This document shows positions 8,131-55,936 of a stretch of DNA of 64,000 nucleotides, piece by piece. Position 1 is the first letter of the stretch. Each line of letters starts with the position of its first letter. The stretch is from contig CM077159.1 of NCBI GenBank assembly GCA_039583875.1, forward strand, positions 4,591,371 through 4,655,370, written 5' to 3'. This stretch comes from Platanthera guangdongensis. Its lineage: Eukaryota > Streptophyta > Magnoliopsida > Asparagales > Orchidaceae. The position numbers were made by a program, and so were the translations under genes. The notes beneath the pieces are model-generated. The model ran no database searches. It saw only the letters and a program-made list of their open reading frames with translations, and was not told the origin of the DNA.

Positions 8131-8135
8131 AGTTT

Positions 8136-30931: not shown

Positions 30932-31969
30932 TGTTAACCCCGAAAACAGCGATCCTTCCCAAGGTAGCCAGCTCGCCAGTCGCAGCCTACACCAGGTTCA
31001 TCCTGGAGGTCACGACGCCTTAGTGTGGGTAGACATGTTTCTCTGTCCGCTCAGTCTGCATGGTACGGGAGGTCTCAGCTGTCTGACTGCCCAGGCCGCG
31101 CGTTGTTCCTTTGGTCGGCAGTGGCCGCGGACTGCCTCTTCAGTCTGCCCCTGCAGGTCGCGCCCTTTGTCAGCTTAACCGCAGGTTTCTCAACAGATGC
31201 CCCTTTTGCCGGACTCAAATGTCTATCCTCCCAAACCACTCAAACTGCTAAACAAAAGTCGCGACCTGCCCCCAGCCCACCAGCCAGCTACCTCGGTTCC
31301 CACCTCGCCAACATGCACGGCCTGCCTCGTTAGTCCGGCAGGTCGCCCATCCCTTGTCACCCAGCAGGTGCGGCAAGTTCCATTAAACAATGGCGGACTC
31401 CAGCAGCGATGGCAGACAACTTCATCAGTCCGCCTAAGGAGTGCAGACACTCCAGCAGCCTCGGCTACCCGCAAGGACCAGCAGCAACATCCAGTTCATT
31501 GCGAGCTGGGTGGACTCGAAGTGCAATCAAACTTTCCAGTCTGCCTACGTTGATGAACCTCAGCTCCTCAGCAGCAAGCCTCTTCGTTCCAGCATAAGCG
31601 GACTCAGCTTAGCAGCAGGAGCGGACTACGCGGACTCAACGGATTTGCTATGCAGCCCTCCACTCCTCACCTCCAGCACCCGCTTCTCTCCAGCATGAGG
31701 ACAACCTCCTTAGCCCGCATAGTTTGGCGCGGGCTTGATCTATAGTAGCAGACTCCTCCCAGTTCGGCAGTCAGCAGAACCTCCACCAGAGGGCAGTCCC
31801 AGACCGCACAGCATCGTACGGACTCTGCAGACTCGGCGGATATCCTTTAGATTGCACCCTTAGCACGTGCCCAGTTCAGCAGCGGCAGACTCCGCGGATT
31901 CCCCTCACAGTCCACCACTCAGCCTCCATCTCCCGCTTCCCAGCAGCGGGTGGATTTCCCTCAGCCTGC

Positions 31970-32300
31970 ACAATCTTGGCACGGGCTCGATCAGCTCGGT
32001 AGGGGCGGACTCTGCGGATTCCCCTCGCAGTCCGCAACTCAGCTTCCAGCACCTGCCTCAGCGATAGCAGGAAGACAACCTCCTCAGCCCACACACTCTT
32101 GGCATGGGCTCAATCAGCTCAGTAGGGGCGGGCTCCGCGGATTCCCCTCACAGTTCGCCACTTAGCTTCCAGCGCCCACCTCAGCGGTAGCAGGCGGACA
32201 ACCTCCTCGGCCCACACACTCTTGGTGCGGGCTCGATCAGCTCAGTCCGGGCGAACTCTTCCTAGTCTGTCATCAGCATGACTAGTTCCAGAAGCAAGCC
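31970..32300. repeat. GY U3 tandem units of 123 bp
   Basis: Units start with TCTTGGC(A/G)(C/T)GGGCTC at 31974, 32097 and 32220, an exact 123-bp period. Each contains GGGGCGG(A/G)CTC, CGGATTCCCCTC, CAGTCCGCCACTCAGCTTCCAGC and a Ser-box-like CAGCGG. The 3' LTR holds the same units near 51115-51410. Confidence 0.8.
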
Positions 32301-32406
32301 CCAGTCTGTACGACCTATTGCGGACTCGACGGACTCCTTCCTCTTCTCGCTCCAGTTACCGTCTCACCGAGGGTAAAATCACCGCAAGCCGTTACCCCCT
32401 CGGGCC

Positions 32407-32414
32407 TATAAATA
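32407..32414 (+). promoter_or_regulatory. GY TATA box
   Basis: TATAAATA in CGGGCCTATAAATAGA, conserved in the 3' LTR at about 51548, and located just downstream of the 123-bp units. Confidence 0.65.
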
Positions 32415-33194
32415 GATCCCCATGCCTCTCATTTGAGGGGGGACACGATATCGCCAAGGTGCTCACGCTCGAAGACTCCCGACAGCAAGTTCAGCTCTTT
32501 AGCCCCTGCGGACTCTCTTTCCCAGTCTGGATCTACTCTTCTTGTAACCGTGCACGGTTTGCCGGCTTCAGTCTCTAGTCTGCGCGGCCTCCCATCTGCT
32601 CTTAGTCACGCGGCCTGCCGACCTGGCTCTATAGTCCGCGAGGCCTCTCCTAGCACTTCCTTCCTTAGCCGCCAGCTTCCCATTTGTACCCCTTTATTTG
32701 CTTTCTTGTAAATGTGTATTAGCAAGCTGTAACTCTCAATATTAATCAAAGGAAAGCCCGTCGCAAGAGTGGAAATTAAGCCGCAGCGGGCGAAGTCTGC
32801 TGTTGCCGCTCCTAGCGTCCCCCTTTCTTCTTCTTCTCAGCTCAACAATCTTGGCGTCAACTTGCAAGCACAACCGTCATAGTAACTGTCTACTCGATAG
32901 TTACTGATCAACCTCCTCTTCTGATCAACCTTCTTCGCTGATCATCAGCCTTCCCGGCTGCTCTCAGCAAACCTCTCATATAACCTCGCAACCCTTTGAC
33001 AAGCGTTTGCTCCACTCTCTAGCACTCAGAATCTTCATTTCCTCCTCTTCATCCCTGCAACCTTCATCCTCTTCTTCACCTTGCCTGTGAGATCGAACAC
33101 CCCTCCGTATTAATAAGGCGGTGCCGTTTTTGCGCATCAACAGTTAACACGCGACCTTCAAATCCGAACGGACGGTGAACAATGATAGTTAGCC

Positions 33195-34903: not shown

Positions 34904-34908
34904 CTCTT
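34904..34908. repeat. Target site duplication of S (CTCTT), left copy
   Basis: CTCTT at 34904-34908 recurs at 47818-47822 just beyond the 3' LTR. The target is a CTCTTA microsatellite-like run that continues to 47834. Confidence 0.93.
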
Positions 34909-35054
34909 TGTTGGGTACATTGGTTTAAATGTACCTGATTTGAAGAAGCCTCACCCTACTCAATGATATACATCAAAATGTATTTGATGTATTTTGAGTT
35001 GCCTTGTGCAGGTTAAGTATTTGCAGGGAAAGATGAAAAGTTTCTAAGTCCATA

Positions 35055-35865
35055 TGTCGACACCCAGAAGGAAAGTGTCGACACTTAAGAAGACTTGTGT
35101 CGACACCCAGGAAAGCAGTGTCGACACTTGGAGTACTTGTGTCGACACCAGGGATGCAGAGTCGACACCAGACAGAAAGTGTCGACACAAGGAGCTGTGT
35201 CGACACTCAATGAAGAAAGTCCAGTGAAGCTGTGTCGACACTTAGAAGTTGTGTCGACACCCAGAGGAACTGTGTCTACATCAGAAAATGTCGACACTTG
35301 GAGGCTGTGTCGACACTCAGCAGAAGACTCAACACATGAAGAAAGTGTCGACATAATGAAGAATGTGTCGACACATAGCAGAAGATTCGATACATGAAGA
35401 AAGTGTCGACACTAGAAGGCTGTGTCGACACTCAGCAAAGTTCAACGAAAATTCTAAGTACAAGTGTCGACACAAAGGAGATGTGTCGACACTCAGCAAA
35501 AGTCTCAACAGAAGAAGAATGTGTCGGGACAAGGAGCTGTGTCGACACTCAGCAAGTATCAACACAGAAGGCATGTGTCGACACCAAGAAGATGTGTCGA
35601 CACTGAACAAAGTTCAACACATGAAGATGTGTCGACACAAAGGAGATGTGTCGACACTTACAAGAATTCAACAAAGTACTGAAGAACAAGTAGTTGTGTC
35701 GACACACAATATCAGTGTCGACACATGATGAAGAAGCTGTGTTGAGAAGTAATTTCTACAACACAAGGAGTTGTGTCGACACCTTGAAGGCTAGTGTCGA
35801 CACTTAGTCAACTTGTGTCGACACTTGGTCTATAAGTGTCGACACTTAAAGACAGACTGTCTCGA
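35055..35865. repeat. S U3 array of GTGTCGACAC palindromes (5' LTR)
   Basis: About two dozen copies of the 10-bp palindrome GTGTCGACAC, usually as TGTGTCGACACT, spaced 10-40 bp by A/G-rich linkers such as CAGCAGAAG and AAGGAG. Decayed copies (TGTCTACA, TGTCGGGAC) are few. The 3' LTR counterpart is 45863-46735. Open frames rich in Cys-Arg-His and Val-Ser-Thr here are just this repeat translated. Confidence 0.93.
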
Positions 35866-36002
35866 CACTTTCAGACAGTTACAGTTATTTCAAGAACTGA
35901 CTGGATGACATGACAGCTGCCATTCCAGCCGGTCTACTGTACCTGTCAGAGTTGTCAGAAAGCTGTTAGGAACCGGATCAGCCGGTCACCATGAAGAAGG
36001 CC

Positions 36003-36010
36003 TATAAATA
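36003..36010 (+). promoter_or_regulatory. S LTR TATA box
   Basis: TATAAATA within the palindromic GGCCTATAAATAGGC, about 140 bp downstream of the array. Conserved at 46871 in the 3' LTR. Confidence 0.7.
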
Positions 36011-36436
36011 GGCTTATACTGACAACAGAAACAGATGATCAATACATCTAAGAAGATCAATCAACAAGAGAAACACAGAAGAAGATCTAGCTATTCATTG
36101 AAGAATCAAGTGAAGATCTAAGAAGTTGGAGAGAGAGAGCTCCATCCAAGAAGACAGCCGTTGGAACCAGGCTGTGAAGAAGGGTTCAGACCTAGTTCTG
36201 AATCTTAAGTTGTAGTGATTGAAGATCAGCTGCAGAGAATCAATCCTATTGTGTTCTACATTCAAGAAGCTTTGAAGAAAGCCAAGTGAGATTGATCTCA
36301 GCAGAGTTCTTCCAAGAACTCATCAAGAACCTATCAACTCATCTCTCTATTCAGAGTTGTAGGTATATACACTTTGTATTCTTATTTTCTTGTAGGATCC
36401 TTAGGGATTTGAGTTTGTAAGCCTGTAATTATAAAG

Positions 36437-36530
36437 GCTGAGTGTAGGCCTGTTGTGCCTGAGTGTAGGCCTGTTATGGCTGAGTGTAGGCCTGTTGTGG
36501 CTGAGTGTAGGCATGTTGTGGCTGAGTGTA
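36437..36530. repeat. S LTR 21-bp minisatellite
   Basis: Unit GCTGAGTGTAGGCCTGTTGTG, about four and a half copies at exact 21-bp period. The 3' LTR has about seven copies at 47306-47455. Translated, it gives a repetitive WLSVGLL peptide, which is not evidence of a gene. Confidence 0.9.
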
Positions 36531-36853
36531 GGCTTTGTGAAGAAGCTGAGTGTAGGTCTTTGGAGAAGACTGAGTTGTAGGGCCTTGGGCCAGAGCTGTA
36601 GGAACCTGTTTTGGGGTTCTGAGTGTATGATCTGAGGATCTGAGATAGTGGAGGAGTTTGGCCAAATCTAGTACGCTATTAGATAGGCGAAGGGGGAAAG
36701 TGGATGTACCCAAACCTTGGGGAACCACTATAAATTTGTGTGTTCACTGTGTGCTTGATTGATTGCTGTGATTGTTGATTGACTGCTGTGTAGAATAAGT
36801 TACAAATCTGTGATATAATCTGCAATCTGCCTAAAAGTTTTAAAAAGATTAAG

Positions 36854-36886
36854 TCACCTATTCATCCCCCCCCCCCCTCTAGGTGA
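36854..36886 (+). promoter_or_regulatory. S terminal poly-C stem-loop
   Basis: TCACCTA (36854-36860) pairs with TAGGTGA (36880-36886) around a loop of TTCAT and twelve Cs; the structure ends 19 bases before the LTR end. It is repeated at 47765-47798 in the 3' LTR. Confidence 0.75.
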
Positions 36887-36907
36887 TTAGGTACAATTTC
36901 TTTCAAG

Positions 36908-36919
36908 TGTTATTAGAGC
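36908..36919 (+). other. S primer binding site (decayed initiator-Met type)
   Basis: TGTTATTAGAGC, two bases past the LTR, differs from TGGTATCAGAGC at two positions. Confidence 0.8.
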
Positions 36920-37047
36920 CAGGTTACTAAAAAAAAGGACTTAACTGTCTGAGTAAATCCTGTTGGCAGATTCAGTATAAGTAAATTGCAGAATCAAGAA
37001 AATCAAGAAACATGGGTTCAACATAAAATCATAAGGAACTTGGATCC

Positions 37048-39048
37048 ATGAAGTTGCCCATTTGCAGAAAAGAAATTTTTGGCATCTGGAAGGAAAGGGT
37101 GAGACTGTTTATGCAAGCCTCAGACCCTAGAATTTATATCACAGTTAAAGAAGCGCCATATGTGCCTATGAAGGTTTCAGTTTTGGATGCAAATCAGAGA
37201 ACACCTAAGGACTTCTCTGAAATGACAAAAGATGAGATAATTCTAGCCACAATGGACAAAAGGGCTCAGAATATCATAGTGAGTGTCATAGATGATGCTA
37301 CCTTTCAGAATTTGATACACTGTAAGATATCTAAGGAGATGTGGGATACCTTGATAGTGTATATGGAAGGTTCAGAAGAGGTGAGACAGGACAGAAAGTC
37401 ATTGTTAAACTAGGAATATGAAAGTTTCAGGCAAGGTAAGGCTGATAGCATAACTGAATGCTATAAGAAGTTCTATAGGATTGTGAATGAGCTAATGTCC
37501 TATGGAAGAGAATTCAGTAATTATGAACTAAATGATAAGTTCTTGAGGTCTCTAACAAATGATTGGGACACCAAGATCTGTGCCATTAGGGAAATGACAA
37601 AGTTAGCAGATATCCCTCCTCCAACACTATTTGGAAAACTACTTTCCTATGAGATGCAGTTGATGGTGAGGAAAGAAGAGGAGAAGTATACCAGGATTGA
37701 GAATAAAGAAAGAACAGTGGCATTCAAGACAGAAGCCACCAGAAAATATAGAAGTAAGTCACCATCTCCACCTCCAAAGATAGCTGAGACTGAGCCAGAT
37801 GAGTCAGCAAGCAAAAAGTCTGAAAGCAGTGAGAGTGATGAGGACTTTGCAGCATTCACAAGACACTTTCAGAAGTTTCTAAAGAAGAAACAGTGGAGGA
37901 CAAAGCCATCCACATTACAGGGTAAAGATGACTATTATCAGAACAAAAAGTCATCAAAGAAAGACAGGAGGAAGACCAAGTCAAGCAAAGCAACTTTATC
38001 AAAAATTGTTTGCTATTGCTGTAACAGACAAGGACATGTTATTGCTGACTATCCTGAGAAAAGGAAAGAGTCTAATGATAAGAAAAAGACTCAATTCAAG
38101 GTCAAGAAGGAAAGGTCTTTTGTTGCCAAGAAAGATAAAAGCCTGTCAGACATATCTTCTTCAGAAACTGAGTCAGAAGCTGAAGCATACATAGGTCTGT
38201 TTTCTGAGGAAGAAGAAGAAGAGTTCATCCAGATCATGAATTCTATATATGAGCAAGAGGACATCCAGTGCAAAGGACTGATGGCCTTAACAGAAGATGA
38301 CAAAATCCAGGAGCAGCCTGGACCTAGTAAGGTACAAAATTATTCTTTAAGTTCAATTTCTTGTGCTAGTTCAGAATCAGATTCATCATCATCAAGTGAT
38401 GAGAGTGCATCTGAGTCTGAAGAGAATATTCATCAGTTGATTGATGAATATAGAGTTCTGTTGCAAGCATTTAAGAAAAGCAAATCCTTGGCCAAGAGTC
38501 AGGCTAAGGAGATTGCAAGTCTCAAAGTGGCTGCAACAGATTATGAGAAGTTGTTTGATCAAAAACTTAATGAGATAGCCAGACTGAAAAACATAACTGT
38601 TATTCAGATGGGGACTATAACTTTTAAGAATGATCAAATCAGAAAGCTGGAGATTAATCTTCAGAAGGAGAGAGACATTGTTGCTAGGTTTTCTAAGCCT
38701 AAGTCTGTTCTACCCTTAATTGATGAATTTGTTCATCAAAAAGGTAAAACTGGATTAGGGTTTACTAAACCAGCTAGGACTATTCAGTCCAAGTCTAAGG
38801 GCAAAGCCCCAGCTCTCAAGAAGCCAGTTGTAGTTAAAACAGCTAGGAATGTACCTAAGCAAAGGTACAATAGGTTTGAGTGCTGGTGCTGTGGCAAGGT
38901 AGGCCACTATGACATAGACTGTTGGCACAATTCTAGTGCCAAGTTGAGTAGCAAACTGCCTGTTGGAAAACCTGCAGGTAGCTTTGTAAAGAGGCAAACT
39001 AACCAGCACCAAGGACCCAAGAATTCTTTAGGTTCTAAGGTCAACTAA
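37048..39048 (+). pseudogene. S gag (single internal stop)
   Basis: The frame opens at ATG 37048; an in-frame ATG at 37012 is followed at once by TAA 37024, so the original start may be 37012. One TAG at 37411-37413 interrupts otherwise continuous coding of about 665 codons. The order is: UBN2-like core (FGIWKERVRLFMQASDPRIY to about 37620); Ser/Glu linker; knuckle 1 CYCCNRQGHVIADY (38011-38052, last Cys replaced by Tyr); acidic and serine-rich stretches (38150-38420); coiled coil (38430-38690); and knuckle 2 CWCCGKVGHYDIDC (38881-38922, intact). It ends at TAA 39046-39048 in the same frame as pol. Structural and RNA-packaging protein. Confidence 0.92.
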
Positions 39049-39066
39049 TCTGTTTTACAGGTAAGT
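39046..39066 (+). promoter_or_regulatory. S gag-pol junction: in-frame TAA plus splice-like tract
   Basis: TAA is followed by TCTGTTTTACAG and GTAAGT: a pyrimidine-rich CAG acceptor-like site abutting a consensus donor-like GTAAGT, keeping the frame into protease. The corresponding tracts occur in A, C, D and E. Whether it is used for splicing, for readthrough context, or neither is inference. Confidence 0.6.
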
Positions 39067-42000
39067 CCAAGTGGCCATGCCCCAATATGGTACTTGGACA
39101 GTGGATGTTCCAGACACATGACTGGAACTAAGGGATTGTTAAAGGACTACACACCAATCAAGGATGGTCCTAAAATCACCTTCGGTGGTTCTGAAAAAGG
39201 AATCATCAAGGGTTTTGGTAACATTTCTAGCACCCATATTACTATTACTCAAGTGGCTTATGTTAAAGGTTTGAAACATAACCTTATTAGTATAAGTCAA
39301 TTGAGTGATGTAGGATATGACATCTCATTTGTCAAAGATGGTTGTCATATCAGGAGGTCAATTGATCAAGAGATCATTTTGACAGGTTATAGAAAGAGGA
39401 ATGTCTATTGCCTAGACATTATGTGTGAGACCAATGGTTCTCTAGTGTGTTTTGTAGCTGATGAGAAAGTCTCTCATTGTGTCGAATGGCACAAGAGGCT
39501 AGCCCATCTCAACTACAAGATAATTGGCAAACTCTATAGCAAAGAGTTAGTGAGGAATGGTCCTCAAGTTAAGTTTATTAAAGATGGAATATGCTCAGCT
39601 TCTCAAAAGGGCAAGCAGATTAGATCCACCTTTAGTAGCATTGAAATCAAAAATGCTGTGAGGTGTTTATACCTCTTGCATATGGATCTCTTTGGTCCTA
39701 TGCCAGTTCACAGCCTAGGTAGGAAGGTCTATACCTTTGTGGTTGTAGATGACTACTCAAGGTTTTCCTGGGTGTTCTTTCTTAGACAGAAATCTGAAAC
39801 ACCTAGTATCTTCTATAGCTTTGTCAAACAAATTCAGAATGAACTAGACAGTACAATGGTCAAGATAAGAAGTGACCATAGTACTGAATTCCAGTCTGAT
39901 AGCATGACAAAACTATGTGAAGAATTTGGGATATTTCAGGAATTTTCTTCACCTAGAACACCTCAGCAAAATGGCATTGCTGAGAGGAAAAATAGAACCT
40001 TGATTGAGGCTGGTAGAACCCTATTAAGTGACACATCTCTCCCGAAATATTTCTGGGCTGAGGCAGTTAATACTGCATGCCATGTAATTAATAGGGCTAC
40101 CATTACTAAAAGCCACAATAAGACCCCCTATGAGATTGTGAAAGGCAGAAAACCAAACCTGTCCTATTTCAGGATCTTTGGTTGTAAATGCTTTATACTT
40201 AACAATGGAAAGTCTTACTTGACTAAGTTTGCTTCCAAGTCCCAAGAGGGAATTTTTGTTGGGTACAGCAACAATAGTAAGGCTTATAGAGTCTACAACT
40301 TGTTTACTCAAGTTGTAGAAGCGTCTGTACATGTAGTATTTGATGAAACTAGACTTATTAACAATGAGTTGTCTAGTAGTATTTGCAGCTCCACAGGTGT
40401 GACTGAGAAGATGGACAAGCTCACTATAGAAGAAGGACCTACTACAAGACAGCAAGTAGAAGATAGTGGTTGTTGTCCAGGGGGAGTACTACATGTACCT
40501 AATGTAGAAGAAGACCTAGGAGTGCAGCAAGTTGAAGAAGCTGAAGGAGTTCAACCTGAAGCCAGGATGCCTCCAGCTAACAGGCATCTAAGAGATCATC
40601 CAGCAGAGCAATCATTGGTGATCTAAGACAAGGGGTACAAATAAGGAGCAAAACTCTGAGTGCAGCACTCTACTCCAGTTTTCTATCCCAAGTAGAGCCA
40701 AAGAAGTTTGAATAAGCCATCCTAGATCCTCATTGGATTGAGGCAATGCAAGAAGAGCTGAATTAGTTCAAGAGATGCAAAGTCTGGGAGCTTGTTCCTA
40801 AACCAAAAGACCACAATATAATTGGAACCAAGTGGATCTTTAGGAACAAGATGGATGAACATGGAGTGATTGTCAAGAACAAAGCAAGATTGGTTGCTAA
40901 AGGATATAGGCAGGAAGAAGGTATTGACTTTGATCAAACCTTTGCTCCAGTAGCCAGACTGGAAGCCATAAGGATGTTCCTGGCCTATGCAACCTTTCAA
41001 GGATTTAAAGTTTACCAAATGGATGTAAAGTCAGCCTTTCTGAATGGTAATCTAAAAGAGGAAGTCTATGTGGAACAGCCATCAGGTTTTGTTGATTCAA
41101 CTCAACCTAATTATGTCTATAGACTTAGGAAAGCTTTGTATGGGTTAAAACAAGCCCCCAGGGCTTGGTATGAAACCCTGTCTAGTTTCCTCATTGAGAA
41201 TAAATTCACAAGGGGGAAAATAGACAAGACTCTATTCCTTAGGGAATCAAGAGGCAAGATCATACTAGTCCAAATATATGTAGATGACATCATATTTGGG
41301 TCTACTGAAAGTAGTCTTTGCAAAAATTTTGCAAAACTAATGCAAGGACAATTTGAGATGAGCCGTATGGGGGAACTTAAGTTCTTCTTGGGTCTCCAAG
41401 TTAGACAGACTGAGAATGGTTTATCCATATACCAGTCTAAGTTCACCCTAAAACTGATAAGGAAGTATGGTATGGATTCTTCCAGTACCATGAAGACTCC
41501 TATGGGGTCAAGTATGTCTCTTAGCAAAGATGATGCAGGGAAACCTGCAGATGAGACTTTGTATAGAGGGATAGTTGGCTCCCTACTCTATTTAACTGCA
41601 AGTAGACCAGATATCATGTATGCTACATGTGTCTGTGCTAGGTACCAAGCATGCCCTAAAGAGTCTCATTTGACAGCAGTCAAAAGAATACTGAGATATC
41701 TTAAGGGCACTCCTTATCTAGGTCTTTGGTACCCTAGGAATGGAGACTTTGAACTAACAGGTTATTCAGATGCAGATTTTGCAGGCTGCAAAGAAGACAG
41801 AAAAAGTACAACTGGAACCTGTCAATTCCTAGGTGGATGACTGATTTCATGGAGTAGCAAGAAGCAAACAAGTGTGGCTATCTCCACAGCAGAATCAGAA
41901 TATGTGACTGCAGTAAGTTGTTGTGCTCAACTTCTCTGGATACAACATCAGCTTGAGGATTATAGTATTCAAGTAAGTAGAACACCACTGTTTTGTGATT

Positions 42001-42221
42001 CTACTAGTGCTATATCTATTGCTAACAATCCTGTTTCCCATAGTAGAACTAAACATATTGAGATAAAATATTGTTTTCTAAGGGAACATGTAGAAAAAGA
42101 AGATATTTCACTTGAATATATTAATACAGATAATCAACTAGCTGACATGTATACTAAGCCCATAGAAGAAACAAAGTTCAATAGGTTTAAAATTGAACTA
42201 GTTATGATAAACTTAGAATAA
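39049..42221 (+). pseudogene. S pol: protease, integrase, RT, RNase H
   Basis: In frame with gag: protease WYLDSGCSRHMT (39088-39123); GAG-pre-integrase HNLISISQLSDVGY and WHKRLAHLN, with the zinc Cys pair reduced to one (ICSASQKGK); integrase core with catalytic Asp codons at 39748 and 39874 and Glu at 39982, giving the D..D-35-E spacing. A one-base loss near 40609 shifts frame. RT follows: [33 protein letters not shown], and the intact YVDD palm motif at 41277-41288. RNase H has [14 protein letters not shown] and AISTAESEYV, ending at TAA 42219-42221. Internal stops: 40713, 40764 and 41838. Otherwise well preserved. Confidence 0.93.
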
Positions 42222-42728
42222 GTTTACAGAAATGGCTAAGTAAAATAGTGTCGACACACATAGTTGTCTGTGTCGACACAGAAAAATGGTGTCGACACTT
42301 CAGGGAAAAGGTGTCAACACATCTAGGAAGTTGGTGTCGACACTTCAGAAAAATAGTGTCGACACATATAGGATAGGTGTCGACACATCCAAGGTGGTGT
42401 CAACACTTAGACTTTATGCAGAATTAGTGAAGTAAAGTCTCGACTAAGTGTCGAGCTAAGTGGTGTCGACACATAATCAAGTGTCGACACATACATTCTG
42501 TCGACTATACTTGTGTCGACACATAGTTGTCGAGACATTATAAGTCTGTGTCGACACTTTTCAACAGTGTCGACACAATTTGAGTTTGTTGACGCGCCCT
42601 TTCATCTTCAAACCTAGAAAGGTATAAATAGGATTTCACCATTGTTTGTCGACACATTCTCTAAAGTTTCGAGACCAAACTTGTGTGTCGACACCTCTCT
42701 TCTCTCAATTCAAATTCTTCAAACCCTA
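42222..42728 (+). promoter_or_regulatory. S pol-env intergenic region: GTGTCGACAC array and TATA box
   Basis: About 500 bp with no ORF. Eleven exact GTGTCGACAC copies by hand count lie between 42248 and 42576, with decayed GTGTCAACAC between, then TATAAATAGG at 42623-42632, two further TGTCGACAC copies, and a C/T/A-rich leader (CTCTCTTCTCTCAATTC) to the ATG at 42729. The arrangement repeats that of the LTR U3: palindrome array, then the same TATAAATAGG. I infer an internal promoter for the env-like ORF. Confidence 0.65.
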
Positions 42729-45442
42729 ATGGCGCCCAAGCTCGAGGAGAACGTCAATGAAGGCTATGAACTTGTGCGGCATGCGTTTGATGATGCAAAT
42801 TCATAGATCAAGGATGTGGTAACCCTAGTCGCAAACTCAGGGTTAGATTTTCTTGTTTCAGTGCCAACCAAAATATGGAAGAAGGAAGTACTGGAATTCC
42901 TGAATGGAGCTACTGTAGATGAATCTGGACTAAAGATCAAGTCCAGGGTTCATGGAGAAAAGGTGAAGGTCTCACCTAAGAGTTTGAGAAAGGTGCTAAA
43001 CCTACCAAGGACTAAAGAAGAGGATGAAATTACTGCTTCTAAGATAAGAGAAGCTTTAACATGGTGTGGACTGGATTCCAAGATGAAAGTTGGATCAGTT
43101 TTCAATAGGAAAGGAATGACCAGCCAAGGGAAATTTTTATCTGAAATTGTTGGGAAAGTTATCCTATGCAAGTCTGGAGGACATGACAGGATTTCAGCTT
43201 ATATGTTCTGCATCATGACAAGGATTATCTTTCAACTATCTACTGATTGGTCTGCAGTATTATTTGAGAAGATTAAGGAGAGCCTGAAGAAACCCAATCT
43301 GGGTAGAATTCTAAGGCTTTACTTAGCTGGTAGTATACCAGAAGTAATGAGTCAAGCTGCTGGAAGAAGAAGATAGCCCCAGTGGCTCAAGATTCATCTA
43401 GCAGCTCTGAGGAGCAAGTTGTCTTTACACCAGATGATGAACAAGAACCTGGAAATGCTGGAAAGTCTCCAGCTATACAAGATAATGCAGACAGGTAGGG
43501 GGAGCTACCACAGTCAAGCCCTCTTCACCAGGATTCTATCCAGGGGGAGCCTCTAGTAGTGGAAGAGCCAACTCCACTAGAAAGTGAACAAGCTACAAAC
43601 ACCATACTTGAGGTACTCACTGAAATCAATAACTTAGTTTTCCCTATAGTGGATACTATTTTGACTGATTCATTAAATAATGTTAATCAGCAACCTCAGA
43701 TTGATAATCAACTCCCAGATGTTGTCATGGAGGACACATCTGTTGCAGCTCAAGTTATATCTAATCAAGTTGTTGATGAGCCAAGAGAATCTCCATCACA
43801 ACCTCAACAAGAGTTTATTATGGAAGATCTCTTCCTTAATCTAGACCAAACAGACTTTGAAATGGAAAGTGCTGCTGCTGAGGGGGAGAATGCTCAAGTT
43901 GAGGGGGAGCAAGTGGAAATTCTAGAAGAAATTGCAAGGCAAGAGCCTGAGAAGCCAAAGGTTGTTAAGGAGCTACCTAAGGAGAGGGTAGATATAGCCA
44001 GCACATCAGCCTCTGAAGATGAGGAGGCTGCAAGAGCAAAGAAAAGGAAATTTCAAGTATTTAAAAGAAGGAGCCAGAATTACAAAAAGACCTTACAAAC
44101 TATAGCACCACAACCTGCACTACATCCAGCATAAACTGTAGATTACAGTGCTTTGATAGTTGCAATGCAAATTAAGCTTGATGAGCACAGGAAAGCCATA
44201 GAAACATATGTGGATGAGGGGCATAAGTCTTTACAGTTTGATCTAGCCCAAGACATTAAGTCTATAAGATTTGAAATGAATCTCAATAAGAAGGAGATGA
44301 CTGACTGCTTCCACAAGGGAGGGAATGCAGTGGTGTACTTGGCTACACATCAAGAAAAGATCAAAGCTCAAGTGGATGACATTGCACTGAAGCAAGGATA
44401 TGTTCTGGAGAACCAGCTCAGAATGAATGACAATTTGACTGCTTCACACAATGCAATTGTCATAGAGATGAAGAATATAGCTGCTGGACAGACTACTTCT
44501 ACTGCTACTACTAAGGCAGAGTTTGATAAAGCTTTACAAGAGAGTATAAATGCTGTTACTTCTGCAATTGAAAATTCTCAGAAGTTGATAACTGAAAAAC
44601 TCCAAAGGTTGAAACCTTTCTTTAAAGATGGAGTAAACTATTTGGATAACCAAATAAGATTTCAAAAGGATGATCTAAGAGATCACATGAAAAGAGAAGT
44701 CATAAAGGGGGAGAGGGTGTTAGTCAAAGCCAGCTCTAATCATGCCAAGTGGATTTCTAATTCTATCAGAGCAACTCTTGGTTATCATTCTTTATGTCAT
44801 GATGATAATGTGGCAGAGTCTGGGATATATCCTGCATATCTAGGAGGGGAGCAACCTGAAGTGGCTCAAGTCATCTACCCTCCTCCAGACTTTGATATGG
44901 TACAGGCAGATATACAGTCCATGTATAGCCCACCTGAGGGAAAGCATAATGTCATTATAGAAAAAGTGGTTCAGCCAGTATCTGAGGCTATGCAAGAAGC
45001 TTTGTTGAAAGAACAAGAAGCCAAACTGTCTACGAAGAGGTTCAGAGAGCAAGCTGAACAAAGTCCTGATTTTGAACAGTGGCGCCCCACTTCAAGAAAC
45101 ATTATCTTAACTGCATGGAAGGCTGCCAAAGATAATATTCAAGACAGAAACAAATGGTTTTCTGAACTAGAATGGAGGAAGCACGAAACAAGGCAAGAAG
45201 CCATTGTGCAATATAGAAGAAAGGCAAAGATGGGAAAGCTACCTCTTATTGCCCAGGAGCCTAGCAAGTACTTTCCCAAGCCTTATCATTACTTGGAGAG
45301 GCAGAAGATTAAAGCCGAAGAGCTAAAGAAGAAGGATCTGAAAGGGAAGAAGCCTGCTGATACTGAAGATGCTGAAACCCCTGTACAAGCAAAGATAAAG
45401 TCTGGGAAGGGCATAGTGATCAAGGATGCTGAGCAAAAATAG
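42729..45442 (+). pseudogene. S env-like ORF
   Basis: ATG 42729 opens a reading of about 900 codons with stops at 42804 and, after a one-base frame change in a GAAGAAGAAG run near 43365, at 43496 and 44132; it ends at 45440-45442. The N-terminal third (WKKEVLEFLNGATVDESGLKI, then VSPKSLRKVLNLP and AYMFCIMTRIIFQL) resembles the domain annotated in many plant genomes as putative plant transposon protein. The middle is acidic and Gln/Glu-rich. The C-terminal 430 residues are helical with coiled-coil character (44160-44560) and end Lys-rich. I see no signal peptide and no convincing membrane anchor. Sireviruses of the env-bearing branch carry an ORF at this place; its function is unknown. Confidence 0.8.
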
Positions 45443-45702
45443 AACAGAATTTTCTGCAGTTTATAATTGTAATCTTTGGGATTTAAACACTTTGTAAACT
45501 TTTGTAAAATGAATATGACAAAGCTGTTAGAACAATGTGTTGTGTGATAAATCCATTTCATAATTGTTCTGAGATGATATCTATGTATACATGTTTGTTT
45601 AATACATGTTTATGTTTGCCCTGTTACATAATCCTGCTTTACATCATGCTATGATTTTATTCTGTATGGTGTATATCATTGACTAAGGGTTATGACTTCT
45701 CC

Positions 45703-45716
45703 AAATAGGGGGAGAG
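45703..45716 (+). other. S polypurine tract
   Basis: AAATAGGGGGAGAG lies directly before the 3' LTR start, the expected plus-strand priming site. Similar AGGGGGAG strings occur at 40481, 43499, 43540, 43881, 43903 and 44706. Confidence 0.82.
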
Positions 45717-47817
45717 TGTTGGGTACATTCGTTTAAATGTACCTGATTTGAAGAAGCCTCACCCTACTCAATGATATACATCAAAATGTATTTGATGTAT
45801 TTTGAGTTGTCTTGTGTAGGTTAAGTATTTGCAGGGAAAGATGAAAAGTTTCTAAGTCCATGTGTCGACACCCAGAAGGAAAGTGTCGACACTTAAGAAG
45901 ACTTGTGTCGACACTCAGGCAAGCAGTGTCGACACTAGGAGTACTTGTGTCGACACCAGGGATGCAGAGTCGACACCAGACAGAAAGTGTCGACACAAGG
46001 AGCTGTGTCGACACTCAATGAAGAAAGTCCAGTGAAGCTATGTCGACAATTAGAAGTTGTGTCGACACCCAGAGGAACTGTGTCTACATCAGAAAGTGTC
46101 GACACTTGGAGGCTGTGTCGACACTCAGCAAAAGTCAGCAGAGTCTAAGTATAAGTGTCGACACAAGAAAGAATGTGTCGACACTCAGCAGAAGACTCAA
46201 CACATGAAGAAAGTGTCGACATAATGAAGAATGTGTCGACACACAGCAGAAGATTCGATACATGAAGAAAGTGTCGACACTAGAAGGCTGTGTCGACACT
46301 CAGCAAAGTTCAACGAAAATTCTAAGTACAAGTTTCGACATAAAGGAGATGTGTCGACACTCAGCAAAAGTCTCAACAGAAGAAGAATGTGTCGGCAAAA
46401 GGAGCTGTGTCGACACTCAGCAAGTATCAACACAGAAGGCATGTGTCGACAACAAGAAGATGTGTCGACACTGAACAAAGTTCAACACATGAAGATGTGT
46501 CGACACAAAGGAGATGTGTCGACACTTACAAGAATTCAACAAAGTACTGAAGAACAAGTAGTTGTGTCGACACACAATATCAGTATCGACACATGATGAA
46601 GAAGTTGTGTCGAGAAGTAATTTCTACAACACAAGGAGTTGTGTCGACACCTTGAAGGCTAGTGTCGACACTTAGTCAACTTGTGTCGACACTTGGTCTA
46701 TAAGTGTCGACACTTAAAGACAGACTGTCTCGACACTTTCAGACAGTTACAGTTATTTCAAGAACTGGCTGGATGACATGACAGCTGCCATTCCAGCCAG
46801 TCTACTGCACCTGTCAGAGTTGTCAGAAAGCTGTTAGGAACCGGATCAGCCGGTCACCATGAAGAAGGCCTATAAATAGGCTTATACTGACAACATAAAT
46901 AGATGATCAATACATCTAAGAAGATCAATCAACAAGAGAAACACAGAATAAGATCTAGCTATTCATTGAAGAATCAAGTGAAGATCTAAGAAGTTGGAGA
47001 GAGAGAGCTCCATCCAAGAAGACAGCCGTTGGAACCAGGCTGTGAAGAAGGGTTCAGACCTAGTTCTGAATCTTAAGTTGCAGTGATTAAAGATCAGCTG
47101 CAGAGAATCAATCCTATTGTGTTCTACATTCAAGAAGCTTTGAAGAAAGCCAAGTGAGATTGATCTCAGCAGAGTTCTTCTAAGAACTCATCAAGAACCT
47201 ATCAACTCATCTCTCTATTCAGAGTTGTAGGTATATACACTTTGTATTCTTATTTTCTTATAGGATCCTTAGGGATCTGAGTTTGTAAGCCTGTAATTAT
47301 AAAGGCTGAGTGTAGGCCTGTTGTGGCTGAGTGTAGGCCTGTTGTGGCTGAGTGTAAGCCTGTTGTGGCTGAGTGTAGGCCTGTTGTGGCTGAGTGTAGG
47401 CCTATTGTGGCTGAGTGTAGGCCTGTTGTGGCTGAGTGTAGGCTTTGTGAAGAAGCTGAGTGTAGGTCTTTGGAGAAGACTGAGTTGTAGGGCCTTGGGC
47501 CTGAGCTGTAGGAACCTATTTTGGGGTTCTGAGTGTATGATCTGATGATCTGAGATAGTGGAGGAGTTTGGCCGAATCTAGTACACTACTAGATAGGCGA
47601 AGGGGGAAAGTGGATGTACCCAAACCTTGGGAAACCACTATAAATTTATGTGTTCACTGTGTGCTTGATTGATTGCTGTGATTGCTGATTGACTGCTGTA
47701 TAGAATAAGTTACAAATCTGTGATATAATCTGCAATCTTCCTAAAAAGTTTTAAAAAGATTAAGTCACCTATTCACCCCCCCCCCCCCCTCTAGGTGATT
47801 AGGTACAATTTCTTTCA
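45717..47817 (+). repeat. S 3' LTR
   Basis: 2101 bp, same termini as the 5' copy. The GTGTCGACAC array spans 45863-46735, with one extra segment of about 62 bp at 46131-46192; TATAAATA at 46871; about seven 21-bp minisatellite units at 47306-47455; poly-C stem-loop at 47765-47798 with a 14-C run. Confidence 0.94.
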
Positions 47818-50076
47818 CTCTTACTCTTACTCTTCATATTTCAAACATTTTCCCTTACAAAGCACTTCTAAGTGTTCATTCTTGCTTTTCAATAAAGCTT
47901 TCATCAGGGATCTCATACTGACACAGTTCCCTTCTTGTAATCTTTCTTCCTCCATTTTTCTCTTTGTCAAAGAGATCACTAAACCAATGAGATATCGCTG
48001 AGTCTTGCTATAGGCCCCCTCGAGATTGGACTCCGGCGTAAGGCCACAATGACCACACATTGCGGGGTGTTTTCGCATGTGTGTAGTGGGGCAATCCAAT
48101 TCTCATGTGGACGAATACAGGACTTCAGATACTAGCCAGCATCTGACACAGAGTGTGTGCTAGGGAAGCCCCATGTGTTAGATCTACTATGCTTCGCAAA
48201 GGATACATCACAGTTACGATGATCTTTGCTTGGCAAGCAATGGCGATCAAGCATAGCCTTGCCTCTTCGATCATCTCACAATTGTGATGGTCGAACACTC
48301 TATGGTACTCTCAATCCATGTCTTCACGGGATCCACAATTCCATTGATCTTTCCACAAACAAGCAATGTTTTAGGCCATTTGGCGTAACTAATCTCATGG
48401 ATCAGTGATGATTGTACCAAAGGCAAGTGGCAGTGCATTTGATGTTTCCTTCTTAGGATTTTTGAGCATGTCTCCCTTTTGTGCTCTGTCAAGAGAGTAT
48501 AGCTAGTCCTCTTTGTTATCCACTGCCTCTTTCACAGGTGAACAGGTTAATGCGGCCTACCAAAAGAATTTGCAACATTCATTTTGGCTTATGCTCATCT
48601 TATATGCATTGCTTGCTCAAAGCTCTATTAGATGATGACTTACAAGCTCTCTACTTATATAAGCTCTCCATCACTCTTATCAAAATCTAATGTCATCAAA
48701 CATTGATCAAGGAATCTAACTCTTCTTTATCATCAAGCCTTGTTATTGGAATCTAGTTAAGATTGGCAGAATTCATCAAGCTTCTTCTCCGCTAATCTGA
48801 TCACATCTATCCCATCATATCAACAGTCAACATTCGACTTATTGATCTGGACTACATGTTGAAGACATCTTTAATATATCAAGAAGATCACTTCTTTGGT
48901 TTGATCTCCATTCAATTATCAGTAGAGTTCATCAGGCATTTCCTCTGCTACTTGGTCATATCCACCTTATCTCGTCAACAGTTAACATTTGTAAGTTCCA
49001 TCCAGGTACTTGCATCTTAGCTCATTACTTTATGTCTGCTGCTCACTCTTCTCTTTGTAGTGATTAGCAGACACCAGCAAGTCATATCCAGGTACCTGCG
49101 GTTTAGTTTATACATCATGTATCCTTCTATCTCTGATTTTGCAGAGATCAGCAGACACTTGCATGTTTCTTCACAGGTACTTGAAAGCTACTTTCACATA
49201 TTTTGTCTGCTCCTAACTCTTTTCTTGTAGAGATCGACAGACACTTGCAAGTTTCTTGACAGGTACTTGCAAGCTACTTTCACATATTTTGTCGGCTCCT
49301 AACTCTTTTCTTACAGAGATCAGCAGACACTTGCAAGTTTCTTCACAGGTACTTGCAAGCTACTTTCACATATTTTGTCTGGTCCTAACCCTTTTCTTGC
49401 AGAGATCAACAGACACTTGCAAGTTTCTTCACAGGTACTTGCAAGCTACTTTCACTATTTTGTCTGCTCCTAACTCTTTTCTTGCAGAGATCAGCAGACA
49501 CTTGTAAGTTTCTTCACAGGCACTTGCAAGCTACTTTCACATATTTTGTTTGCTCCCGACTCTTTTCTTGCAAAGATCAGCAAACACTTTCAAGTTTCTT
49601 CATAGGTACTTGCAAGCTACTTTCACATATTTTATCTGCTCCTAACTCTTTTCTTGCAGAGATCAACAGACACTTGCATGTTTCCTTCACAGGTACTTGC
49701 AAGCTACTTTTATATCTCATATTTGCTTCTAACATCTCTTTTGCAGAAAGTAGCAAACGCTTGCAAGCCTCCATCAGGAACTTTCAAGTTATTATGCTCT
49801 TATGTTTTCCTCTCACCTTCATTTTGCAGAACTCGGTAGAGCACATATCTTCTTCGTTTTGCAAAGGTAAAGTCAGGTATGCACAAGGCGTAACTTGCAT
49901 ACATGCCTATACTAACTTTTCCTTTGCAGGAAAAACACACGCAATAGCAACCTCCTTAGGAGAGACATCAGGTTATATCTCTCCTTGTCTCCTCTTTCTT
50001 TGGGGAGGATCACAATTTTCGTGGGTCTCCAACTATTTCGAAGTTCCCTTCCGAACTTAAAAACGTGCGCTGATTA
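47818..50076 (+). other. GY internal region, right part (non-coding)
   Basis: This continues GY after the S insertion. No protein domain is recognised in any frame; a 90-codon minus-strand frame at 48099-47827 has no support. The main content is an 86-bp tandem repeat (about 48960-49830). No purine-rich priming tract directly abuts the 3' LTR; the nearest candidate is GGGGAGGA near 50005. Confidence 0.75.
48960..49830. repeat. GY 86-bp tandem repeat array
   Basis: Units begin at GATCAGCAGACACTTGCAAG or close variants at 49059, 49145, 49232, 49318, 49404, 49489, 49575, 49661 and 49747: a period of 85-87 bp. Central copies are very alike; the edge copies (48970 and 49747 onward) are more divergent, the pattern expected of local unequal exchange. 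Tat-lineage 3' regions are known to seed satellites this way. Confidence 0.92.
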
Positions 50077-52283
50077 TGTTAACCCCGAAATCGGCGATCC
50101 TTCACAAGGTAGCCAGCTCGCCAGTCGTGGCCTACACTAGGTTCTTCCTGGAGGTCGGGATGCCTTAGTGTGGGCGGACAGGTTTCTCTGTTTGCTTAGT
50201 CCGCACGGTACGGGCGGTCTCAGCAGTCTGACCGGCCAGGCCGCGCATTGTTCCTTTGGTCGGCAATGGCCGTGAACTACCTTATCAGTCTGCCCTTGCA
50301 GGCCTCTCCCTTTGTCAGCTTAACCATAGGTTTCTCAACAGATGCCCCTTTTGCCGGAATCAAATGTCTATCCGCCCAGACCGCTCAAACCGCCAAACAA
50401 AAGTGGCGACCTGCCCCCAGGCCACCAGGCAGCTACTTCAGTTCCCGCCTCGCCAACATGTGCATCTTGCCTCGTCAGTCTGGCAGGTCGCCCATCCCTT
50501 GTTACCCAGCAGGTGTGGCAAGTTCCATTAAACAGTGGCAGACTCCAGCAGCGATGGCAGCCAGCTTCATCAGTCCGCCTAAGGAGTGCGGACACTCCAG
50601 CAGCCTCGGCTACACCCAAAGACCAGCATCAACATCCTGTTCATCGTGAGCTAGGCAGACTCGAAGCGCAATCAAACCTTCCAGTCCGCCTACGTTGATG
50701 AACCTCAGTTCCTCAACAGTAGGCCTCTTCGTTCCAGCATAAGAGGACTCAGCTTAGTAGCAGGAGCGGACTACGCGGACTCAGAGGATTTGCTATGCAG
50801 CCCATCAATCCTCACCTCCAGCACCCGCTTCTCTCCAGCAGGCGGACAACCTCCTCAGCCCGTATAGTTTGGCATGGGCTTGATGTGTAGTAGCGGACTC
50901 CCAGTTTGCCAAGCAGTAGAACCTCCACCAGAGGGCAGTCCCAGACCGCGCAGCCTCGTGCGGACTCTGCGGACTCGGCGGATATCCTTCAGCTCGCACC
51001 CTTAGCGCGTGCTCAGTTCAATAGCGACGAACTACATGGATTCCCCTCGCAGTTCTCCACTCAGCTTCCAGCTCCTGCTTCCCTACAGCGGGTGGATTTC
51101 CGTCAACCCGCACAATCTTAGCACGGGCTCGATGAGCTAAGCAGGGGCGGACTCCGTGGATTCCCACGCAGTCCGCCACTCAGCTTCCAGCGCCCACCTC
51201 AGAGGCAGCAGGCAGACAACCTCCTCAGCCCACACACTCTTGGCGCAGGCTCGATCAGCTCAGTAGGGGCGGGCTCCGCGTATTCCCCTCGCAGTCCGCC
51301 ACTCAGCTTCCAGCGCCTGCCTTAGCGGCAGCAGGCGGACAACCTCCTCAGCCCACACACTCTTGGCGCGGGTTCGATCAGCTCAGTCCGGGTGGACTCT
51401 TCCTAGTCTGCCATCAGAAGGACCAGTTCCAGAAGCAAGCCCCAGTCCGCACGGCCTGTTGCGAACACGACGGACTCCTTTCTCATCTCGCTCCAGTTAC
51501 CGTCTCACCGGGGATAACGTCACCGCAAGACGTTACCTCCTCGGGCCTATAAATAGACCCCCATGCCTCTCATTTGAGGGGGGACACGACATCGCCAAGG
51601 TGCTCACGCCCAAAGACTCCCGACAGCAAGTTCAACTCTTCAGCCCCTGCGGACTCTCTTTCAAAGTCCGCATCTCCTCTTCTTGTAACCACGCGCGGTA
51701 TGCCGGCTTCAGTCTCCAGCCCGTACGGCCTCCCCTCTGCTCTTCGTCGCGCGGCCTGCCGAACTGGCTCTTCAGTCCGCGTGGCCTCTCCTGGCACTTC
51801 CTTCCTTAGCCGCCAGCTTCCCATTTGTACCCCTTTAGTTGCTTTCTTGTAAAGGTGTATTAGCAAGCTGTAACTCTCAATATTAATCAAAGGAAAGCCC
51901 GTCGCAAGAGTGAAATTTAAGCCGCGGCGGGTGAAGTCTATTGTTGCCGCTGCTAGAGGCCACCTTTCATCTTCTTCTCAGCTCAACTCTCTCAGCGTCA
52001 ACCTGCAAGCACAACCGTCATAGTAACTGTCTGCTCGACAGCTCCTGATAAACCTCCTCTTCTGATCAACCTTCTTCGCTGATCATCAGCCTTCCCGGCT
52101 GCTCTCAGCAAACTTCTCCTCTATCCCCGCAACCCTTTGACAAGCGTTTGCTCCACTCTCGAGCACTCAGAAGATTCCTCTCCTCATCTTCATCCCCGCA
52201 ACCTTCATCCTCTTCTTCACCCTGCCCGTGAGATCGAACACCCCTCCGTGTTAACTAGGCGGTGTTGTTTTCGCGCATTAACA
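50077..52283 (+). repeat. GY 3' LTR
   Basis: 2207 bp, TGTTAACCCC to GCATTAACA, collinear with the 5' LTR including the 123-bp units (about 51115-51410) and the TATAAATAG box (51548). Followed by the second ACCTG duplication and the rest of the E LTR. Confidence 0.91.
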
Positions 52284-52761: not shown

Positions 52762-55700
52762 CTACACAAGATTCAACATTCCCAATTCAAATTTGAAGGT
52801 GTTGAACTTAGCTTCATCTAGTGGCTTAGTGAAGATATCAGTCACTTGCTTGTCTGTGGAGACAAACTCAAGGGAGATGTCTTTCATTTCCACATGTTCT
52901 CTAATGAAATGATACCTAATTTCTATATGCTTAGTCCTGCTATGAGAGACAGGATTCCTAGCTATAGAAATTACAGTAGTAGAATCACAAAAGAGTGGAG
53001 TTATATTTATCTGAATATTGTAGTCCTGAAGTTGATGATGGATCCACAACAACTAAGCACAACAGCTTCCAGCTGAAATATACTCTGACTCTACTGTTGA
53101 GATTGCAACACTTGTCTGTTTCTTACTTCTCCAAGAGACTAGCCTTCCACATAGAAATTGACAGGAGCCTGAAGTGATCTTCCTATCCTCCTTGCAGCCA
53201 GCAAAATCTGCATCTAAATAGCAATTTAGTTCAAATTCCTCATTCTTGGGGTACCATAGACCAAGATCTGGGGTGCCCTTAAGATATCTCAAGATTATTT
53301 TTCACAGTAGTATAGTAAGACTCTTTAGGGCACGCCTGATAGCTAGCACAGACAAATGTTGCATACATAATGTCAAGCCTAATTGTTATGAGGTATAGAA
53401 GGGAGACAACTATACCTCTATATAGAGTTTGATCAACAGGCTTTCCTGGATCATCTTTGCCTATAGGCATACTTGAGCTCATGGGAGTTCTTATGGTGGA
53501 AGCATTCTCCATGCCATATTTCTTGATTATCACCCTGGTGATTTTTTACTGGGATATCAATAGACCATCATCAGTCTGTTTTACTTGGAGTCCCAAGAAA
53601 AACTTCAATTCACCCATACTACTCATCTCAAACTTCCCTTGCATAAGTTTTGCAAACTTCCTGCAGAGGTTGTCATCAGTAGAGCCAAATATTATGTCAT
53701 CAACATAAATCTGGACTAGAATGATCTTTCCCTTAGATTCTCTTAGGAATATGGTCTTGTCTATCTTGCCCCTTGAGAATTTGTTCTCAATGAGGAAGGT
53801 AGACAATGTCTCATACCATGCTCTTATTGCTTGCTTATGCCCATAAAGAGCTTTCCTAAGACTATATACAGCAGAAGGAGAGTTAGAATCATTAAAACCT
53901 GGAGGCTGCTCCACATAAACCTCTTCCTTCAAGTCCCCATTTAGAAATGCTGACTTGACATCTATCTGTAATATCTTGAATCCCTGGAAGGCTGTAAATG
54001 CAAGGATGAGTCTGATTGCTTCCAAACTAGTAATTGGGGCAAAGGTTTGATCATAATCAATTCCTTCTTCCTGTTTATACCCTTTGGCCACCAGTTTGGC
54101 TTTATTCGTGATTACAATGCCATTTTCATCAAGTTTATTTCTAAAAATCCACTTGACTCCAATGACATTGAGTCCATTTGGTCTGGGAACCAGCTTCCAG
54201 ACCTTTTACCTTTTGAACTGGTTCAGTTCTTCCTGCATTGCACTAATCCAGAATGGGTCTTAATTTGCTTCTTCAAATTTCTTAGGCTCTTCTTGTGACG
54301 GGAAGATGGAATAAAGTGATGTGGTTAGACTCCTGCTTCTGGTCTGTACACCTTGGCTAGCCTCACCTATTATCTACTCTAGGGGATGATCTCTAAGATA
54401 TTTTACTATAGGGGGCAGTCTGACTGCTTCCTGTTGATTATCATTTTCTTCAGTAGGTTGGTCTTCATTTCTAGCTTGACTGCCCTGTACTTCCTCTAGA
54501 TAGCATCCGTCTCCACAATCTTCTTGCAAAGCTGGGACTTGATCCTTGATGGAGAGCTTTTCCATCATATCTGTTCCTACAGAGCTAGGCAAAGAGCTTG
54601 ACAGCTCACTGTCAATCATGCATGACTCATCAAACACTACATGGATTACCTCTTCTACAACTTGATTTGTCAAGTTGTAGACTCTATATGCCTTACTGTT
54701 ATTGTTGTACCCAACAAATATCCCCTCATGGGATTTGGCAGCAAACTTAGTCATTTTTGACTTACCATTGTCTAGGATGAAACACTTGCAACCAAAGATC
54801 CTGAAGTAGGATATGTTTAGTTTTCTGCCCTTCAAGATCTCATAGGGAGTCTCCTTTTGTCATTTGGTGATAGAAGCCCTGTTGAGTACATGACATGCAG
54901 TGTTAACTACCTCAGCCCAGAAATATTTAGGGAGAGAAGTGTCACTCAATAGTGTTCTCCCAGCTTCTATGAGAGTCCTGTTTTTCCTCTCAGCTAACCC
55001 ATTTTGCTGGGGTATTCTTGGAGAGGAGAACTCTTGATGAATCTCTTTATCTTCACAGAATGTAGTCATAGCAGCAGACAGAAACTCAGTTCCATGATCA
55101 CTTATCATTCTGACCACAGAGCATGCAAGCTCATTCTGAATTTTCCTGACAAAATTTATGAAGACCTCAAGGGTTTCATCCTTTCTTCTAAGGACGAACA
55201 CCCAAGTTAACCTAGAATAGTCATCAACCACCACAAGGGTGTAAACCTTCCTACCTAGACTATAAACAGGCATAGGACCAAACAAATCCATATGCAGGAG
55301 ATACAAGCATCTCACAGAGTCTTTGGCCCCAATTCTCTTGAAAGAGGTCTTTGTCTACTAACCCTTTTGGCAAGCAACACAGATACCATCCTTGGAGCAT
55401 TTCATTTTGGGATCATTCCTAACAAGCTCATCACTAAATTGTTGACCAATGGTCTTATAATTCAAATGAGCGAGTCACTTGTGCCACTGGACACAATATG
55501 AGACTTTCTCATCTGCAACTTGACATATAGGGGAACTATTTTCCAAGTAAGAAAAATTCAAGCAATAAACATTCCCACTCCTAGTGCCTGTTAAGATGAC
55601 ACTTTGGTCACTTAACCTCTTGATGTTGCACTTATACTTGTGGAAGGAAATGTCATAACCAAGATCACATAGTTGGCTTATGCTTATGAGGTTCTCTTGC

Positions 55701-55933: not shown

Positions 55934-55936
55934 TTA

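Follow-up and report, generated by a model that had tools for sequence, protein, structure and literature searches.

A Candidate Internal Promoter and Leader Upstream of the env-Like Gene in a Family of Sirevirus-Type Retrotransposons

Introduction

How can a retrotransposon express an env-like open reading frame (ORF) that lies several hundred bases past the end of pol? The available text of Bousios et al. 2010 places palindromic RMs of Sireviruses in the upper LTR before the TATA box and reports that in nine env-bearing Sireviruses the RMs also occur in the linker, before ENV in 77 of 79 of these copies (PMC2829016). Most Sirevirus RM clusters are CpG islands, and 12 of 13 Sirevirus RMs share a CGG-CCG core, with Tnd-1 as the exception (PMC2829016). 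The same source states that the RM clusters support the proposal of an internal promoter made by Peterson-Burch and Voytas, the promoter itself not having been conclusively identified. MASiVEdb names stop suppression and an internal promoter as mechanisms of env expression (PMC3414828), and the text available from both sources leaves open how most Sireviruses express the env-like gene. Palindrome clusters before ENV and the internal-promoter hypothesis are already in print (PMC2829016); the kind of arrangement is known. Here we address the question for one element in a 64,000-nucleotide stretch of the Platanthera guangdongensis genome (the window) and for its copies in the host genome.

Results

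A single element of Sirevirus type spans 12.9 kb of the window (34909-47817); its 5' LTR measures 1,997 bases and its 3' LTR 2,101 (Table 1). Its domains follow the copia order, with the integrase core in 39094-40626 preceding RVT_2 in 40851-41840. The C-rich integrase signal typical of Sireviruses is present as a C-run near the end of each LTR, and the polypurine tract AGGGGGAG at 45707 stands ahead of the LTR at 45717, with extra copies upstream. These additional octamers (43497, 43542, 43881, 43902 and 44706) lie within the env-like region, whereas in other Sireviruses copies of the tract are described after it. One-mismatch matches to the primer-binding site TATCAGAGC are expected 18 times per window by chance, so that only its position favours TATTAGAGC at 36911 as the primer-binding site. 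Judged from its letters, the window copy is dead, with a broken pol and an env-like ORF that stops early, at TAG 42804-42806. As this ORF ends after 25 codons, the inference developed below concerns the family and not the window copy.

Table 1. Coordinates of the element and of the parts recognised between pol and the env-like ORF
Feature	Position	Strand	Basis or remark
Target-site duplication CTCTT (5-bp), 5' copy	34904..34908	.	Sequence; matches 47818-47822
5' LTR	34909..36905	+	Self-comparison; ends TG...CA
U3 array, 25 exact GTGTCGACAC	35075..35845	+	Motif count
LTR TATA box TATAAATAGG	36003..36012	+	157 nt past last exact palindrome
C-run near 5' LTR end, Sirevirus integrase-signal-like	36866..36877	+	Sequence, compared with available text of PMC2829016
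Primer-binding-site-like TATTAGAGC	36911..36919	+	1 mismatch to TATCAGAGC
gag-pol region, split into several ORFs; SH3, integrase, RVT_2 domains	37483..42221	+	pol end = TAA 42219-42221
Internal palindrome array, 11 exact GTGTCGACAC	42248..42576	+	Motif count; conserved in copies
Partly conserved GC/pyrimidine element, GACGCGCCCTTTCATCTTC in window copy	42591..42609	+	Columns 44-100%; between array and TATA box
Internal TATA box TATAAATAGG	42623..42632	+	Conserved in copies
TGTCGACA, 24 nt past TATA start	42647..42654	+	Eight columns 80-100%; predicted place of transcript start
Conserved leader element TTTCGAGACCAAA	42667..42679	+	72-100% columns; used as genome-wide anchor
Twelfth exact palindrome, within leader	42685..42694	+	First nine columns 89-100%, last 27%
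Pyrimidine-rich leader end, closing with AACCCTA	42695..42728	+	Sequence
env-like region, broken	42729..45442	+	TAG 42804, stop 43374-43376, other frame TAG 43496 and TAA 44132; weak PF20167 at start
Terminal polypurine tract AGGGGGAG	45707..45714	+	Begins 10 bp 5' of 3' LTR
3' LTR	45717..47817	+	Self-comparison
3' LTR array, 25 exact GTGTCGACAC	45862..46713	+	Motif count
3' LTR TATA box	46871..46880	+	TATAAATAGG match
Target-site duplication CTCTT, 3' copy	47818..47822	.	Matches 5' copy

The window also holds other repeats. A second copia-type pol stretch (52786-56111, minus strand) is 72% identical to that of the element and lies in the opposite orientation, with no GTGTCGACAC nearby. A tandem repeat with a unit of ~85 bases occupies 48975-49831. 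Two direct repeat pairs, 30932-33142 / 50077-52283 (88.5% identical) and 6695-8131 / 14883-16300 (90% identical), are perhaps the LTRs of further elements.

The window has 62 copies of the palindrome GTGTCGACAC, against a mean of 0.02 in shuffles. These form three clusters, with 25 copies in each LTR and 12 between pol and env (42248-42694), and none was found elsewhere in the whole window even when one mismatch was allowed. The TATA-box 10-mer TATAAATAGG is present only at the three places listed in Table 1 (0.05 expected). The preliminary description had reported eleven palindromes in the internal array, to which the twelfth in the leader (42685) is now added. Its positions for the internal TATA box, the ATG at 42729, the pol TAA and the 507 bp between the two codons all hold, and its estimate of about two dozen palindromes ahead of the LTR TATA box at 36003 becomes an exact 25 per LTR. 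Counting pol's own TAA, there are 10 stops in the pol frame of 42222-42728, and 6 and 8 in the other frames; three ATGs lie upstream of the TATA box and none between it and the env ATG. With the palindromes masked, the best LTR match of 42222-42728 is no better than E=0.12. This stretch is therefore not a copied piece of the LTR, in agreement with the earlier view that it is no simple LTR copy.

Close copies were collected from the 4.25-Gb host genome with a 331-base query of pol 3' DNA that ends 9 bases past the pol stop. The search scored 40 matches of 2,847 candidates, and 30 copies were cut out, window copy included (set A). The preliminary description had named loss of the array and TATA box in related copies as an outcome that would speak against a promoter. 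Both are kept, the array in 30/30 and the TATA box at the same place in 29/30 copies, window copy counted; the sole exception (L016) is interrupted by an LTR insertion. Across the 29 remaining copies, identity reaches 96.0% in the palindromes, 96.6% in the TATA box and 95.8% in the pol end, compared with 88.8% in the linkers, 89.5% in the spacer and 84.3% at the env 5' end, so array and TATA box exceed linkers and spacer. The TATA box reads TATAAATAGG in 24 of the 29 and takes one of four one-letter variants in the other five, of which only TATATATAGG alters the first eight letters. Nevertheless, 29% of the 10-mers tested across 42200-42760 are as widely common in set A, and the close copies alone thus do not single out the TATA box. 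Four of 24 measured close copies carry an ATG between the TATA box and the env ATG, and in 4/24 the distance from the TATA box to the closest exact palindrome is 65 nt instead of 46, the palindrome in between having lost its exactness. At window position 43364 the matches of several close copies break, and ~110 bases there are absent from the window copy.

Genome-wide, a palindrome followed after 30-60 nt by TATAAATA is found at 24,682 places (control 5). In the 100 places listed, the gap measures 44 (3), 45 (24), 46 (64) or 47 nt (9), though 30-60 nt was allowed. This count and its gap listing are conditioned on the TATA box; only set A and a count anchored in the leader are free of such conditioning. 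The anchor, the leader 13-mer TTTCGAGACCAAA, was chosen regardless of the TATA box and is present at 19,879 places (control 55), its exact match favouring little-mutated copies. An exact TATAAATA lies 30-45 nt upstream of 18,753 of these anchors (94.3%; control 0) and an exact palindrome 80-105 nt upstream of 16,635 (83.7%; control 0). The argument for an internal promoter is carried by the leader-anchor count.

The geometry of the LTR is different, as the last palindrome precedes the TATA box by 156-157 nt in the LTRs measured versus 44-47 nt internally. A palindrome-TATA distance of 145-175 nt fits 48,615 places (control 5), a figure that includes internal sites through a palindrome farther upstream. 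For 56 internal sites on contig C1 (up to 26.0 Mb), LTR-type sites occur on both sides in 13 and on at least one side in 27. They lie 6.2-6.8 kb upstream or 4.2-4.5 kb downstream, and the count leaves out rows in which an internal site had itself been picked up. The LTR TATA box differs among elements (L059-L078), appearing as TATAAATA, TATATATA or TATATAAA, and both LTRs of an element often share the same form. At G000:C1:475159-475290 and 482874-483108 the palindrome recurs at 103-bp steps with the linker TTGGGCC or TTGGTCC, perhaps as a tandem repeat of its own.

More divergent copies offer a sharper view of what is retained. Set B consists of 20 copies from C1 (L039-L058), picked by eye for differing linkers from the palindrome + TATAAATA list; its palindrome and TATAAATA columns are conditioned by this selection, whereas the leader motifs are not. 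Adding three close copies gave 23, of which 19 are comparable on pol (L047, L051, L056 and L058 dropped out). All 20 set B copies have an array, with 3-14 exact palindromes each. Among the 19, pol protein is 82% identical and pol fourfold sites 59%, and the linkers flanking the TATA box average ~40-50%, gaps counted as differences. In the leader of the same copies, TGTCGACA at +24 scores 80-100%, TTTCGAGACC at +44 72-100% and the core of the second leader palindrome 89-100%. The TATA-to-ATG distance is 104-111 nt in 21/23 copies, and 20 of these 21 leaders are free of ATG.

Column identity by codon position is 0.87/0.94/0.51 over the first 16 codons after the ATG and 0.73/0.68/0.70 before it, indicating that the ORF starts at this ATG and that the leader is non-coding. 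At least 300 codons are open from the env ATG in 15/49 copies, 10 of which reach the end of the fetched piece, and in 3/49 no ATG was matched at the env start. Periodicity and open frames together point at protein-level selection on the env-like ORF. A Pfam search of env-like pieces returned weak PF20167 alone, in 3/4 pieces and below its cut-off.

The spacing within the arrays is also restricted. Start-to-start distances of TGTCGACA in diverse internal arrays are 18-23 bp in 111 of 175 cases and mostly 31-37, 41-47 or 64-67 bp in the rest, with none of the 175 at 11-17 or 24-30 bp; set A (n=310) has one at 13 bp and none at 24-30 bp. A period near 20 bp performs better than one of 10.5 bp, both in the diverse set (R 0.62-0.67 vs 0.45) and in the window LTR (R 0.71-0.79 vs 0.33). 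Spacing of ~20 bp corresponds to two helical turns and would suit cooperative binding on the same face of the DNA, and duplication of a 20-bp unit would fit too.

The CpG content sets the same parts of the element apart. Observed/expected CpG is 1.02 in the array, 0.96 in the leader and 0.79 in U3, compared with 0.02 in pol, 0.09 in env and 0.09 in the rest of the LTR. Taking LTR pairs as identical at insertion, 33/34 CpGs are kept in the array of the window pair vs 4/8 elsewhere in the LTR. The pairs of four further elements kept 124/139 and 23/36, respectively; ten pairs (L059-L078) had been fetched and 4 passed the filter, the others having one LTR not in the stretch (4), an LTR cut by the edge (1) or one that began 62 bases late (1). 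Pooled over the five elements, 157 array CpGs survived and 13 had changed by transition, whereas outside the array 27 LTR CpGs survived and 13 had changed in this way (Fisher p=1.2e-4). Between close copies, 7% of CpG comparisons in the internal array show TG/CA, as do 10% of those for the leader and 28% of those for the env start; the corresponding rates of non-CpG C-to-T change are 5%, 4% and 9%. Another 12% of leader CpGs differ otherwise, and the signal is weaker there. This survival of CpG suggests that the arrays are protected or only lightly methylated.

Discussion

On the sequence evidence assembled here, positions 42222-42728 are likely to hold every part of an internal RNA polymerase II promoter together with its 5' leader. 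Transcription from it would give an env-like mRNA of its own, probably regulated jointly with the LTR. Array, TATA box and leader together probably represent a selected core promoter giving that mRNA, since the TATA box is found at 94% of the leader anchors and the leader motifs outlast both the linkers and the pol fourfold sites. An internal promoter with a transcript of its own had been proposed in the preliminary description; this is partly supported, conservation of array and TATA box speaking for the promoter and the separate transcript standing as a prediction. The conserved DNA of this stretch could also serve another step.

The main competing explanation is that the env-like product arises from a spliced RNA initiated in the LTR, with array and TATA box lying in its intron or leader. 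Splicing of env has been proposed for the Ty3-type env-class elements BAGY-2 and Athila, according to the available text of PMC2829016, and a pyrimidine-rich tract ahead of the ATG could serve as an acceptor, 15/21 copies having an AG within the final 45 nt. However, 6/21 copies, the window copy among them, have no AG in this interval, and splicing accounts for neither the TATA box nor its fixed distance from the palindrome, which makes this route improbable in our judgement. We likewise see little chance that the array acts mainly on chromatin, holding the element open as a CpG island of low methylation and giving env expression as a by-product. CpG near expectation in the arrays and leader only, and the slower loss of CpG from the LTR arrays, are in line with such a role, but few CpGs were counted outside the array, the internal leader signal is weaker, and the TATA box, leader and exact spacing are left unexplained. 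A chromatin role is moreover compatible with a promoter and does not exclude it.

Spread of the palindromes from the LTR by copying or template switching, with no promoter role, appears less probable still. It would agree with the shared 10-mer, the variable copy number among arrays and the ~20-bp spacing, which fits short-unit duplication. The masked comparison with the LTR argues against it, as do the different palindrome-TATA distances and the conservation of leader motifs and spacing where the linkers are only ~40-50% alike. Stop-codon suppression from pol is known in soybean SIRE1 (PMC2829016, citing earlier work), which resembles the window element as a Sirevirus with an env-like ORF after pol. 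In SIRE1 one suppressed stop codon separates pol and env (PMC2829016), whereas here 507 bp with many stops intervene, and pol stop and TATA box are 172-487 nt apart in 20/23 copies alignable to the pol end. Simple readthrough had been dismissed in the preliminary description, and the in-frame stops and distance refute it for this retrotransposon family; we assign suppression next to no probability.

Under the preferred reading of an internal promoter, some twelve palindromes would come first as an enhancer-like array, followed by the GC/pyrimidine element and a TATA box usually 44-47 nt past the last palindrome. The transcript would start ~25-35 nt past the TATA box, on or near the conserved TGTCGACA, and a leader of ~75-80 nt, mostly without ATG, would lead to the env-like ATG. 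In transcription-competent elements, this shorter separate mRNA would allow the env-like protein to be translated from its own message, with a poly(A) signal presumably supplied by the 3' LTR. One host factor probably binds both the internal and the LTR U3 arrays, in which case genomic and env-like RNAs would respond together.

Such a design has a parallel elsewhere. In foamy viruses, an internal promoter located within env directs expression of tas and bel and responds to the viral activator Tas. For the family of the window element, we know of no element-encoded activator. Foamy viruses are unrelated to the element and alike in working, as retroelements that have a promoter additional to that of the LTR (PMC7828637, available text). 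No RT relatives were found in IMG/VR; three IMG/VR stretches (L079-L081) contain two palindromes.

The Sirevirus RM clusters are closer in kind, with one palindrome in high copy before the LTR TATA box and again before ENV. The core is different, as GTGTCGACAC contains neither CGG nor CCG; the nearest RM by letters is that of Vitis, CGGTCGACCG, which has GTCGAC in common with GTGTCGACAC. Compared with the RMs of Bousios et al., the window family adds a conserved leader and an internal TATA box whose distance from the palindromes is fixed. New are the palindrome without the CGG-CCG core, the TATA box at fixed spacing, the conserved leader, the genome-wide retention, the ~20-bp spacing and the slow CpG decay in the LTR arrays. 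None of these features was found described in the literature searched on internal Sirevirus promoters, subscription papers lying mostly outside that search, and no plant retrotransposon paper was among the matches listed for the GTGTCGACAC 10-mer, judged by titles and abstract openings.

Conclusions

A wider model, which we put forward tentatively, is that of a two-promoter LTR retrotransposon in which one host factor, binding cooperatively to palindromes ~20 bp apart, might both fire the LTR and internal promoters and keep them unmethylated. The env-like protein would then be made from its own mRNA, and the internal promoter would be present at >20,000 places in one genome. With a conserved TATA box at a fixed place and >24,000 such sites in one genome, the internal-promoter hypothesis becomes a direct 5'-end experiment. 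Thousands of dispersed promoters of this kind would also provide material on how plants silence, or fail to silence, an internal CpG-rich promoter.
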